IMG/VR virus record: IMGVR_UViG_3300047510_000776
Location: 1-38,042 of that record
DNA from: a virus
Direction: 5' to 3' (one strand)
Length of the DNA stretch: 38,042 bases
In this document: positions 19,021 through 25,735 of the stretch, piece after piece
How positions within the stretch are numbered: the first letter of the stretch is position 1
How the letters are laid out: each line of letters opens with the position of its first letter
Program-made: the position numbers and the translations under genes
The notes under the pieces: model-generated
Databases searched by the model: none
Seen by the model: the letters and a program-made list of their open reading frames with translations, nothing else
What the model was told of the DNA's origin: nothing

Positions 19021-19411
19021 AGCCGAACGGGTCTTTATAGTAGACGGGCGACTCCGGCTGCTGCTTTGCGCGCATCATCTGCATGTCGCGGTCCATGACC
19101 TGATGCAGCCACGAATCGCGGGCGTTTAGCGCCTCGCTGGTCGGGTAGATCGGCCACTTGCCGGCGTTGATGTCTTTACCCCAGATTTTCCACAGCTCGT
19201 TTTCGTCCTCAACGATTTTGCCGTTGACGTACCCTGGCACTGACACGAACTGACCCTTGTACTTACCTTTGGGGATCGTGATGCCCGTGGCGTAGATCGT
19301 CACTGGGTTACCCTCGGCGTCGCGCCCAGGATTGGCCATATTGGCGCGGTGGTACATCACTTTATTGAGTTCCTGCGGCGTCAAGCCGAGGCTGTCCAGA
19401 TAGCTATCCAT
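19007..19411 (-). CDS. Conserved packaging-module protein between TerS and TerL
   Basis: 134 aa. Begins MDSYLDSLGLTPQELNKVMY, then GITIPKGKYKGQFVSVPGYV, and ends KDPFGYVGP. The middle looks like a small beta-barrel, and the LWKIWGKDINAGKWPIYPTS segment is distinctive. I recognise the gene position from related phages but not a function. Overlaps the TerS candidate by 8 bases and TerL by 14, so it is part of the packaging unit. It could be a TerS partner. Confidence 0.65.
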   Translation of the reverse strand: MDSYLDSLGLTPQELNKVMYHRANMANPGRDAEGNPVTIYATGITIPKGKYKGQFVSVPGYVNGKIVEDENELWKIWGKDINAGKWPIYPTSEALNARDSWLHQVMDRDMQMMRAKQQPESPVYYKDPFGYVGP

Positions 19412-19709
19412 CGATGATGTCCTTTATCTCTGGCGGGCTGGCCAGCCCCGAGATGGTGATGTTGATCGCGCTGCGTTGCGCTGCCGTCTTCTCGAACAGG
19501 CTGGTCGGCAACGCCCGCTCCATGCAGAGCTTTAACGCCGCCATCTGGCCTGGGTGGCCGTCGTCCAACGCAATGTCCAAGACCTTCTGGACGACTTGCT
19601 CGCCTTGGCCTTCGATCAGCATCTTCTTCAACTCTTTGATGCGCTGATTGTCGGTCTTGGGCAGCGTCGCCGGTGGCACGTAAGGCGGGTCTTTAATCGG
19701 TGCAGGCAT
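19404..19709 (-). CDS. terS: Putative terminase small subunit
   Basis: 101 aa. Pro-rich start (MPAPIKDPPYVPPATLPKTD), then a helical part (RIKELKKMLIEGQGEQVV, VLDIALDDGHPGQMAALKLC) and the strand INITISGL. The HPGQMAALK segment and the final INITISGL are typical of short TerS proteins in this phage group. It would recognise the packaging site and load TerL. It is the first gene of the late operon. Shorter than many TerS proteins; the helix-turn-helix is not obvious, so the assignment rests on pattern and position. Confidence 0.65.
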   Translation of the reverse strand: MPAPIKDPPYVPPATLPKTDNQRIKELKKMLIEGQGEQVVQKVLDIALDDGHPGQMAALKLCMERALPTSLFEKTAAQRSAINITISGLASPPEIKDIIDG

Positions 19710-19995: not shown

Positions 19996-20018
19996 AATTA
20001 TCCAGGATTGATAGATTT

Positions 20019-20096
20019 TAATTAGGGTCAGAACATGAAAGCAAGGGGCACCATTTTGCCAGTACCTAACGGCCACGAATTAATTAGGGTCAGAAC
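20019..20096. repeat. 16-bp direct repeat TAATTAGGGTCAGAAC, two copies
   Basis: Perfect copies at 20019-20034 and 20081-20096, start-to-start distance 62 bp, enclosing a segment with GGGGCACCATTTTGCC. No transposase gene is present. Similar GGGTCAGA termini occur around REP-associated elements in bacteria, so a small mobile remnant is possible; an operator pair is the alternative. Confidence 0.65.
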
Positions 20097-20318
20097 CTAA
20101 TTTGAATTGTTAAATTCTCTCAGATTATCAAGAAACAATTCGATATCCATATCCGGCCGATAGCCGCGAGCGTACAGCGCGGCGAATATATCTAGGGAGT
20201 TCCAAAAGCCAGCGGATATATCGCCGTTGCCAGCGGCGCCCAAAAGCGAACGGGCGCGATCGTCAAGCGGACGGGTAAACCAGCGAGTTCTAACCGAAGC
20301 GGGACGGCCAGCGGGCAT
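20097..20318 (-). CDS. Small hypothetical protein, 73 aa
   Basis: Start placed at ATG 20318, preceded by GGGGAG; a TTG at 20324 is the alternative. Sequence begins MPAGRPASVRTRWFTRPLDD, contains LLGAAGNGDISAGFWNSLDI and ends LREFNNSN. The N-terminus is basic and the rest helical and acidic. The combination, together with its isolated position facing the early promoter region, would fit a DNA-binding regulator, but I recognise no motif. It is the only gene in the control region. Confidence 0.5.
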   Translation of the reverse strand: MPAGRPASVRTRWFTRPLDDRARSLLGAAGNGDISAGFWNSLDIFAALYARGYRPDMDIELFLDNLREFNNSN

Positions 20319-20354: not shown

Positions 20355-20612
20355 TTGTCGGCAATGTCGGCAATGTAGTCATGCATTTTAAATCGCTGCG
20401 ACCCCCAACGCGTTTTTTTAAATTTCTGCGCAAACGTGCGCCCGTAGAGTCTCGCAGAGCATATTACATATATATCTCACTTAACACTTGAAAATAGATG
20501 ACTACATTGCCGACAATCTCCAAAACCCGCAGCCAGACTCACTTTTACGCCCGCGCCGCTTGCCGACAAACCGCCGACAATTGGCTAACAGACGCCGACA
20601 ATTTGCCGACAA
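20355..20612. repeat. Iteron-like GCCGACAA array with flanking inverted repeat
   Basis: Five exact GCCGACAA copies on the + strand start at 20509, 20562, 20573, 20594 and 20605; the last four are spaced 11, 21 and 11 bp, close to whole helical turns. Two inverted copies lie at 20355-20362 (exact) and 20364-20371 (one mismatch). An 18-bp inverted repeat pairs 20365-20382 with 20498-20515. Between the arms is an AT-rich stretch around 20460-20490. Candidate replication origin or repressor operator array. Confidence 0.75.
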
Positions 20613-20655: not shown

Positions 20656-20683
20656 TTGACATTGTAAAAGAATCCTTTATAAT
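20656..20683 (+). promoter_or_regulatory. Perfect-consensus sigma70 promoter (early genes)
   Basis: TTGACA at 20656-20661, a 16-bp spacer, and TATAAT at 20678-20683: both hexamers match consensus exactly. It points right toward the small early genes, with the first ATG at 20727. The GCCGACAA array ends 44 bp upstream of the -35 box, so a protein bound there could modulate it. Confidence 0.9.
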
Positions 20684-23437: not shown

Positions 23438-25735
23438 CTACGCCAGGCGGACGGCTGCCGGCGCGGGCACTTCCTCGACCATGCGCCTGAGCTCCGATTT
23501 GTTCGTGCCGGCCAGCTCCGGCGCGCAGAAAATGTGTTTCTTGGTCGTGTGCTCGCGTGACGATATGCGACCCATATCGACCCAACCGGCCTCCCTGAGT
23601 GCATGCAGTAGCGCGCCTTGGTAAATGCGCTGGTTACCTGCGACGCCACTCTGCAGGCGGTCGCACAGCGCATGGAAGGGGCCGGCGATCACGCCAGAAG
23701 CAAACTCGGACAGTCGACGCTCGATCAGCTCCACCAGATACGATTCGCCCGAGCTGCGGCCCTGGTCGATCATAATTGCTTTCGCTTCGGTCATCGGTGG
23801 CGCTGCGGACGGGTTGAACGCCGACACGTCACGGGTGTGCAGGTACGATGCGACGGCCTCAAAGCCGCCTGAGTGATACCAGCGCCAGAGTGCTACGGCC
23901 TCCGACTCGGGCAAGCGGCCTGCTTCAGACCAGACGCAAAACCAGCGTCGATCGTTCGACGGGATCGAGATAGCTGCGCGCTCGTTCGAGAACGCGACGA
24001 CGAACACGCGGTTTAATGACATGTACGGGTGCAAACCCTTGCGGTTGATCTGCAAGAGCTCGGGCGGCGCTGCAATGATGGGCTTTAAAGCATTCTCGAG
24101 TGCTCGCCGGTCGCGCGCCTCAGACTGGCGCAGCTCGGCGATTTCCATCACTTCGCACTCGAGCGCATAGCCCCACTGCGAGCTCAGGTCCTCGTTCTTG
24201 ACCAGGCTGCAGTTCTGTTTGGTCTTCCCACCAATGGCCCAGAAGAACGGCGCCATCATCGTGTCTTTGCCCGAGCCTGGGTGCCCGCCGATCAAAACCG
24301 CGTGATTGATCTTCTGGTTCGGGTTTTGGATTTTGAAGGCCAGCGCGTTCAAGACGTGCTCGCGCTCAAAATCAGTCGGGATCATGCGCTCAACGTGCGC
24401 AAGCCATCGGGTGACGTCGCCTGGGATGCCAGCTGGCCGGGCGTCGCGCCAGCGGTTGCCGTACTCATGGCCCTCACGCTCGACGATCTTGGGCTCGCCT
24501 GCTGCGTAGGTTATGCCGACCAGCGCGTGAGCGTCCTCTGATTGGCGATTCTCGTCGAAACACGTAGACGCCTCAATTTTGGCGCCGTTATGTATGGACC
24601 GGCAGGGGATATGTCGGAAAAGTGCGTTAAAAGTAGATCGAGAAATTTCCCGACGATCTTCCAGATCAAAAAAGCTTTCATCTTCTTGAACATAGGCGAA
24701 CCTTGTAAACCAGTCGGCTTTCTCGAGCTTGTTTAACTCCCGGCGCTCGTTCTTAATTTCAACGTCCTTGATGATGCGCGCAGCGTTATCCTCGAACATG
24801 CCAGCGCCGGGCAGCTTGGCAAGTGCTGTCGTCATCACTTGCGCGAGCAGCTCGTCACGCAGGCCAGGCGAGTGCTTCGGTCCGCCCTGCCCTGCGACCC
24901 AGTCGAGAAACGTCTGCGAGTCGAAGTCAAGGCAGTGCGAGTGCAGGCAGCAATACGCCCGGTTAGCCGGGTGGTAGCGGCCTTCGGGGTTGCCGTCGGT
25001 GTGCTCGCCGTGGTTCGGGCAAACGACGCCCATCCAGCCCTCGGGGTTCGGGTGCCGCAGCGCCAGACCTTGGTCTGAGAGCCAGCGCATGACGTCGTCC
25101 GTGCCGTCGTCGGCGACGCGGATGGCCACGGGACCCAGCCGCACGCTCTCGTCCGGCACGACGTCAAGGGCGTTGCAGATTTCGTCCAGTGTGTATTCGC
25201 GCTCGGGATTAAAGCGAGCCAGCTGCGCCTTGAAGCCGTCCTTGCCGGGCTTGAGATTGACGGAACCTGGCAGGCGGAAGTTGCGCACCGGGTTGCAGGC
25301 GCCGGGATCGGTGTAGCCGGCGTTGGCGATCGCGCGGATAGCGGCTGCGAAGTCGGCCTTCGATGGCTGTTCAGAAAAGACGTAGCCCCACTGGAACGAG
25401 CCGGGTGACGTCTCCATGATCCAGGTGGGCTCGAGTGGTGGTGTCTTGGATTTGGTGCCGATGTCGTCCAACATCATGACCAGGATGTACTCGCAGTTGG
25501 CGATACTCGCGCTCGGCTTGTCTTTGAAGCGGTCGACGATAAAACTCGCCGTGTTGCCGTACCAGCTCTCGCCATCCTTGCGCTTGTGCTTGGGGTAGTA
25601 CGCTGGCCATGTGGCCTTGATCGCACCATCCGCGTGGAATTGCATCTGGCCGCCCTGTAGAATCGGCTTCTGGCGCACGATCAGCGCCGTCTCACCAACA
25701 GGTGCGAGACTGGTGTAAAATTCAAAGAAATCCAT
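23438..25735 (-). CDS. Primase-helicase (RepB-type primase + D5/DUF5906-like helicase), 765 aa
   Basis: Residues ~1-200 look like a RepB/archaeo-eukaryotic-type primase: ILVMMLDDIGTK with D90-D91, and CNPVRNFRLPGSVNLKPG. A zinc-binding segment follows at ~239-268 (CPNHGEHTDG, then YCCLHSHC). From ~440 comes a superfamily 3-type helicase with Walker A GGHPGSGKD (483-491) and a later RRWFCVWSEAG arginine-finger-like region. It primes and unwinds phage DNA, pairing with the polymerase encoded upstream. Last gene of the leftward replication operon. Confidence 0.85.
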   Translation of the reverse strand: MDFFEFYTSLAPVGETALIVRQKPILQGGQMQFHADGAIKATWPAYYPKHKRKDGESWYGNTASFIVDRFKDKPSASIANCEYILVMMLDDIGTKSKTPPLEPTWIMETSPGSFQWGYVFSEQPSKADFAAAIRAIANAGYTDPGACNPVRNFRLPGSVNLKPGKDGFKAQLARFNPEREYTLDEICNALDVVPDESVRLGPVAIRVADDGTDDVMRWLSDQGLALRHPNPEGWMGVVCPNHGEHTDGNPEGRYHPANRAYCCLHSHCLDFDSQTFLDWVAGQGGPKHSPGLRDELLAQVMTTALAKLPGAGMFEDNAARIIKDVEIKNERRELNKLEKADWFTRFAYVQEDESFFDLEDRREISRSTFNALFRHIPCRSIHNGAKIEASTCFDENRQSEDAHALVGITYAAGEPKIVEREGHEYGNRWRDARPAGIPGDVTRWLAHVERMIPTDFEREHVLNALAFKIQNPNQKINHAVLIGGHPGSGKDTMMAPFFWAIGGKTKQNCSLVKNEDLSSQWGYALECEVMEIAELRQSEARDRRALENALKPIIAAPPELLQINRKGLHPYMSLNRVFVVAFSNERAAISIPSNDRRWFCVWSEAGRLPESEAVALWRWYHSGGFEAVASYLHTRDVSAFNPSAAPPMTEAKAIMIDQGRSSGESYLVELIERRLSEFASGVIAGPFHALCDRLQSGVAGNQRIYQGALLHALREAGWVDMGRISSREHTTKKHIFCAPELAGTNKSELRRMVEEVPAPAAVRLA

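Follow-up and report, generated by a model that had tools for sequence, protein, structure and literature searches.

The replicons of SaPIs and other PICIs, the phage-inducible islands of staphylococci and E. coli, carry two sets of iterons that flank an AT-rich region, a layout described as unique to PICIs (PMC6092414). The initiator of these islands is a D5-type primase-helicase with a C-terminal DNA-binding domain that recognises the iterons, and different elements use different iterons (PMC6092414, PMC7581432). The alpha protein of the satellite phage P4 unites a primase, a helicase and a winged helix that binds the origin repeats (PMC4234260). For Vibrio PLE (RepA_N-ori) and ICP1 (Odn), the origin co-varies with the initiator's DNA-binding domain, the two being swapped together as a matching pair, and origin diversity matters in the conflict between phage and satellite (PMC8263062). 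In geminiviruses, the positions of the iterons are conserved and their sequences are diverse, tracking a short segment of the initiator, the iteron-related domain of Rep (PMC12548392, PMC10653810). Here, we analyse a 38,042-bp IMG/VR virus record (the window) in which a repeat array at 20355–20612 had originally been predicted to be a candidate origin or master operator. Our comparison indicates that the array is most likely a replication origin whose 9-bp iterons would be bound by the predicted C-terminal winged helix of the phage's own primase-helicase, with specificity at the tip of the wing.

A two-sided repeat array between divergent operons

The window encodes terminase, portal, major head protein, tail, spanin and endolysin, together with DNA polymerase, primase-helicase, exonuclease and DNA helicase, and no integrase is found among the proteins scanned. 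The array occupies a divergent gap between leftward genes (73-aa gene, TerS, TerL, portal and others) and rightward small genes. Its seven sites lie within 258 bp and comprise six exact copies of GCCGACAA, at 20355 on the minus strand and at 20509, 20562, 20573, 20594 and 20605 on the plus strand, and one GCCGACAT at 20364 on the minus strand. The exact positions bear out the number of sites in the original prediction as well as the spacings of the last four (11, 21 and 11 bp), which had been taken as a sign of helical phasing; this latter argument does not extend to the relatives, many of which space their words by 12 and 9 bp on the right and by 8–9 bp on the left. The repeat cluster is far beyond chance: the commonest 8-mer of the 357-bp intergenic region occurs six times, as compared with a maximum of four in 2000 dinucleotide shuffles and of three in any other stretch of 357 bp.

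The 18-bp perfect inverted repeat that had been noted at 20365–20382/20498–20515 is present and sits inside a 28-nt inverted repeat at 89% (20365–20392/20488–20515). It is no separate element, since each arm consists of ATGACTACA and TTGCCGACA placed head-to-tail, in opposite orientation on either side. The left set, on the minus strand, is made up of the exact word TTGCCGACA at 20356–20364, a second TTGCCGACA head-to-tail with it at a 9-bp period (20365–20373) and, at the third position, the variant word ATGACTACA (20374–20382). The right set, on the plus strand, begins with the same variant ATGACTACA (20498–20506) and continues with TTGCCGACA at 20507–20515 and 20560–20568, CCGCCGACA at 20571–20579, ACGCCGACA at 20592–20600 and TTGCCGACA at 20603–20611. 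ATGACTACA is the main word in three relatives (L050, L120 and L033), and the copy at left position 3 is possibly a fossil or a weaker site. Between the two sets lies the AT-rich interval that the inverted repeat had been predicted to bracket (20383–20497; 58% AT versus 47% in the window). This interval is a candidate unwinding element and is least stable from ∼20458, with the 50 bp from this position forming the second least stable segment in the window. Just downstream of the array, the predicted promoter is indeed perfect, with 12/12 positions of the sigma-70 consensus (TTGACA-16-TATAAT; 20656–20683, plus strand), and is directed towards the rightward small genes.

A search of named phages with the array region finds no similar DNA, and the region has no Rfam match. 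GC skew, which had been suggested as a check on the origin, gives no clear switch at the array. To the left of the array, a perfect 17-bp direct repeat, TTAATTAGGGTCAGAAC (20018–20034 and 20080–20096, 62 bp apart), lies around the 3′ end of the 73-aa gene.

The layout is kept in relatives, whereas the word changes

Relatives were fetched by TerL, by a GP88-family protein and by the primase C-terminus, which yields a set of loci (L numbers) that are mostly metagenomic contigs, with sampling weighted to close relatives. Arrays were called by a strict caller that is blind to the wing sequence. The array layout recurs at the same place in at least about 80 related contigs with a differing word, and the arrays called lie mostly 1.2–4.1 kb from the primase stop codon. 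On the left, the layout has two to three minus-strand words at 8–9 bp, head-to-tail; the middle spans about 85–145 bp and includes AT-rich DNA; and on the right, one or two plus-strand words come first, a single minus-strand word often follows, and two to four plus-strand words close the array. Arrays with different words can share exactly the same spacings (e.g. 9, 67, 12 and 9).

GCCGACAA itself is not conserved among the relatives, in which about 13 versions of a word of 8–9 bp are found, each repeated about 5–9 times: TTGCCGACA (window), TTGCCTACA, TGACCCACA, TTGCCCACA, TTGCCCTCA, TTGCCCGCA, TGACGTGCA, TGACTAACA, TGACTACA, TGACCATA/T, TAGCCAACA, TTGTCCACA and TGGGTACAA. The expectation of conserved repeats in the intergenic regions of related phages thus holds for the layout and fails for the sequence of the unit, which changes together with the initiator (see below). 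For this very reason, a lack of unit conservation, originally offered as grounds for giving up the prediction, would be misleading here. The array is present in 19 of the 23 relatives that have the primase and enough sequence, and in none of the nine whose roughly 7-kb right flank is without the primase; neither count is phylogenetically independent. Three loci with primases 62–67% identical (L055, L057 and L070) have no array that we could find. In L257 (MW202483.1, Podoviridae sp. ctNMl277; 51% identical), the layout is retained with a word new to the set, CTACCAA.

Other repeats are seen near these loci. One subgroup (L224, L222, L084 and others) carries CACTAAC/GTTAGTG repeats in alternating orientation roughly 100–300 bp left of the array, and these interspersed repeats are ruled out as iterons by the layout. 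Two loci with TerL 85–86% identical (L068 and L083) have TTGACCCT words in alternating orientation and DnaA-box-like TATCCACA copies in the same intergenic region. No homologue of the window primase is found in the 7-kb right flank of L068, the right flank of L083 is too short to tell, and both perhaps carry a different replication module. Tandem 7–8-bp repeats near TerS, a few hundred bp to its right, occur in L062 and L049 (CTAGCCGC ×9; CGGCCATC ×6) and are unrelated to the iterons.

The primase-helicase ends in a predicted winged helix with a hypervariable tip

The proposed initiator is a primase-helicase of 765 aa (23438–25735, minus strand), assigned by Pfam, PHROGs and predicted structure, the gene of which has its 3′ end about 2.8 kb from the array with several genes between. 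It is composed of a RepB_primase-like N-terminus, a DUF5906 D5/SF3-type helicase (E = 9e-10) and a predicted C-terminal winged helix (Pfam and AlphaFold). In Foldseek, the full-length AlphaFold model (mean pLDDT 71) matches NrS-1 prim-pol (E = 1.5e-13), the SaPI5 primase-helicase (7ola) and PriRep1 with dsDNA (7pds), as well as vaccinia D5, MPXV E5 and AsfvPrimPol, and these structural matches identify the protein as a D5-type primase-helicase. When modelled alone, the C-terminal domain (residues 662–755; 23471–23752, minus strand), which we propose to bind the iterons, has a pLDDT above 90 over most of its core and a predicted winged-helix order, H-E-H-H-E-wing-E, with helices at 662–672, 687–695 and 706–715 and a hairpin at 719–726/729–737. 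A structure search with the isolated domain returns, among the matches listed, no more than generic winged-helix proteins at low Z (up to 6.5); P4 alpha and SaPI Rep are absent among the matches listed, which is no evidence against either.

Residues 724–733 (23537–23566, minus strand; ISSREHTTKK in the window) are hypervariable inside the otherwise conserved C-terminal domain of the primase. This wing tip is predicted with high confidence by AlphaFold, with residues 725, 726, 729 and 730 flanking the turn of the hairpin. Helix 706–715, the usual recognition helix, was rejected as the variable site, since it is largely conserved and the variable residues in the AlphaFold models fall in the wing hairpin.

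The repeat word co-varies with the wing tip

Among the 471 primase columns that vary, the word shares the most information with residues 725 and 730. The wing MSR is paired with TGACTA, NTRE with TGACGTGCA, HSAE with TGACCAT, [GAS]TRE with TTGCCC[TG]CA and KSR with TTGTCCACA, and the window has SSREHTTKK. A further pairing of the NTRE wing with TTGCCGACA, taken from L191, was dropped, as the array of L191 is mixed and also holds GACGTGCA words. Kinship was controlled for with 22 path-disjoint pairs on a tree built without the wing segment. Residue 730 is the best of 171 columns (p = 1.7e-5), differing in 11 of 11 pairs with different words and in 1 of 11 with the same word; residue 725 comes second (9/11 versus 1/11). 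The partial Mantel correlation between word and wing given the rest is 0.45 (0/2000 permutations), and that between word and the rest given the wing is −0.09.

Since hand curation had followed the automatic calls for part of the word labels in this main test, we reran it on automatic 14-mer consensus words alone. The top two of 130 columns are again residues 725 and 730 (10/11 versus 1/10 each, p = 3e-4; family-wise 1/500), and the partial correlation of word and wing given the rest is 0.34 (0/1000 permutations), with p values weaker than those from the curated labels. Among loci whose primases are otherwise >15% different, the nearest wing predicts the word to a mean distance of 1.95 of 9 positions, as compared with 3.23 (minimum 2.62) for permuted labels and 3.61 for the nearest rest-of-domain.

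Near-isogenic pairs of related phages behave as natural experiments. Between L186 and L189, 7 of the 10 wing residues differ, as compared with 1.3% elsewhere, and the words are TTGCCCTCA and TGACCATT. L007/L008, at 94% identity to the window, depart from it at 6 of the 10 wing residues and carry TGACCATA where the window has TTGCCGACA. A Rhodoferax MAG contig (L256, 63% identical) with the wing KSRRHDSKKH has eleven GTCCACA words, which matches the KSR rule; matches in this MAG also suggest a betaproteobacterial host. Most loci outside the rule-making set have the words predicted (L195/L192/L193, L220/L209, L218 and L098; L246/L103 weakly), but the fit to the wing–word rule is not clean for L211, L215/L216 and the KSREFDTRKH group, and identical wings are found with words that differ at two positions in L031/L104 and L176/L200. 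The co-variation points to the primase-helicase as the initiator. The original prediction of an origin with initiator iterons is thereby strengthened on comparative grounds, whereas its remark that no matching initiator is obvious is superseded by a protein whose wing tip tracks the word.

Other readers and other roles of the array

The word was also compared with the proteins encoded around the array on the fetched contigs, and TerL, TerS, the 73-aa protein, the GP88-family protein, portal, polA and the small right-hand proteins are rejected or unsupported as readers, with near-identical copies accompanying different words. This bears on the reading of the array as mainly an operator, at which a bound phage protein would switch the leftward (late) and rightward (early) promoters. 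Such a role would suit the position of the array, which separates divergent operons and is followed at about 45 bp by a 12/12 promoter, and iteron-bound initiators are also able to regulate transcription. We nevertheless consider it unlikely as the main function, in that no other neighbouring protein tracks the word, the protein that does so is the primase-helicase and not a dedicated regulator, the gene of this protein is on the opposite strand to the 20656–20683 promoter, and the array is absent where the primase is absent. Given the nearness of the consensus promoter, the array may possibly have a second, regulatory role, as the term master operator had implied.

TerS (19404–19709) adjoins the array, and packaging sites are often near terS and contain repeats, yet it is very improbable that the small terminase reads the array as a packaging site (pac/cos): TerS is identical over the aligned part in L006, L186 and L189, which have three different words, it is 96% identical to that of the window in L007 and L022, and relatives with a similar TerL that are without a primase homologue are also without the array. 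We give as little credence to a host protein such as DnaA, with words that follow the host; TTGTCCACA and TTGCCCACA come within one or two changes of a DnaA box, but words switch between phages with identical or near-identical TerL and polymerase, and follow residues in a phage protein. The 73-aa protein (20097–20318, minus strand), the initiator candidate of the original prediction, matches nothing in Pfam or PHROGs and is a member of a small conserved family (GRPAS-R.R...ILAAAGAGDIS.GF). Although adjacent, small and variable in its C-terminal half, it can be dismissed almost entirely as the protein that binds the array, being identical in L024 (TGACCCACA) and L026 (TTGCCCTCA) and, over the compared part, in L176/L184, and showing no significant correlation with the word (93/500 permutations).

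Apparent exchange of array and wing tip

Among primases that are otherwise <3% different, the masked spacer DNA between words diverges by 9% on average where the word is shared and by 40% (at least 34%) where it is not, which suggests that arrays are exchanged as whole blocks. The wing tip seems to be replaced at a distance of about 2.6 kb, and the DNA directly right of the array is conserved (L186/L189). Mixed arrays (L191, L238, L247, L035, L006 and the window, with its two ATGACTACA sites) may be intermediates or contain weak sites. The DNA of L123 and L124 is 97% identical over 3.9 kb with a strongly different 3′ end of the primase gene, which suggests a local exchange.

Discussion

With the array, its conserved layout, the switching of its word, the co-variation of the word with the wing tip and the co-occurrence with the primase all read from sequence comparison, the repeat array is very probably the phage replication origin. 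In the mechanism that we propose, copies of the primase-helicase would bind the two oppositely oriented sets of words via the C-terminal winged-helix domain, and the protein bound on either side would distort and melt the AT-rich interval. Helicase-primase rings would then load and prime synthesis for the phage DNA polymerase. Specificity would reside at the tip of the wing hairpin (residues 724–733), chiefly in residues 725 and 730. We infer physical binding, melting and initiation, as well as any reason for switching; binding, melting and priming are taken by analogy from the family (P4 alpha, PMC4234260; SaPI Rep and Cch2, PMC7581432).

Related phages appear to have swapped the whole array block along with the wing tip, so that each keeps a matching lock and key, and the pairing of word and wing suggests a lock-and-key identity system. 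More tentatively, the wing tip (725 and 730 above all) and its matched word may be a switchable origin ‘password’ that is replaced together and bars co-infecting relatives or satellites from cross-use of initiators, a reading that we regard as plausible rather than probable. If it is true, most of the base specificity lies in the wing rather than in the usual recognition helix. The set of words and wings makes it testable why phages diversify the specificity of their origins, be it competition, satellites or origin-targeting nucleases, and the about 13 word types with their wing tips are a natural data set for decoding how winged helices read DNA. To our knowledge, the replication origins of most environmental phages have not been located; here, sequence comparison alone names a probable origin and initiator, along with the residues that are likely to recognise the repeats.

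Comparison with known systems

The locus shares with SaPIs and PICIs the two iteron sets around an AT-rich region, the use of different iterons by different elements, and a D5-type primase-helicase as the putative initiator, with a predicted winged helix as the C-terminal domain that would recognise the iterons. In the islands, the origin is directly 3′ of rep, whereas here some 2.8 kb separate it from the 3′ end of the initiator gene; the islands have an integrase and a master repressor and are without virion genes of their own, whereas the window, a phage contig of 38 kb, encodes virion and lysis proteins. Owing to these virion and lysis genes, and to an origin that does not adjoin rep, the element is not a PICI, and the PICI-type origin layout is extended to phages with their own virion and lysis genes.

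P4 alpha is alike in that primase, helicase and a winged helix that binds origin repeats (as presumed for the window protein) are joined in one protein, but its primase is of the Toprim type (PMC4234260), whereas the window protein has a RepB_primase match. The fusion of a primase to a D5-like helicase is that of the D5/SF3-type primase-helicases, and the closest solved structures to the helicase part are those of the phage NrS-1 primase-polymerase/helicase (6k9c/6k9e/6lrb). The co-variation of initiator and origin resembles that of PLE and ICP1; the PLE initiator, however, is an unrelated RepA_N protein with semi-palindromic iterons of about 30 bp in two main types (PMC8263062), as compared with words of 8–9 bp in about 13 types in the phage itself. 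Conserved iteron positions with diverse sequences are likewise common to geminiviruses, although these are small ssDNA plant viruses that replicate by rolling circle, with a Rep that has no homology to the window protein. As far as our searches show, the novel points are the setting in a phage, the number of different words and the assignment of specificity to the wing tip.
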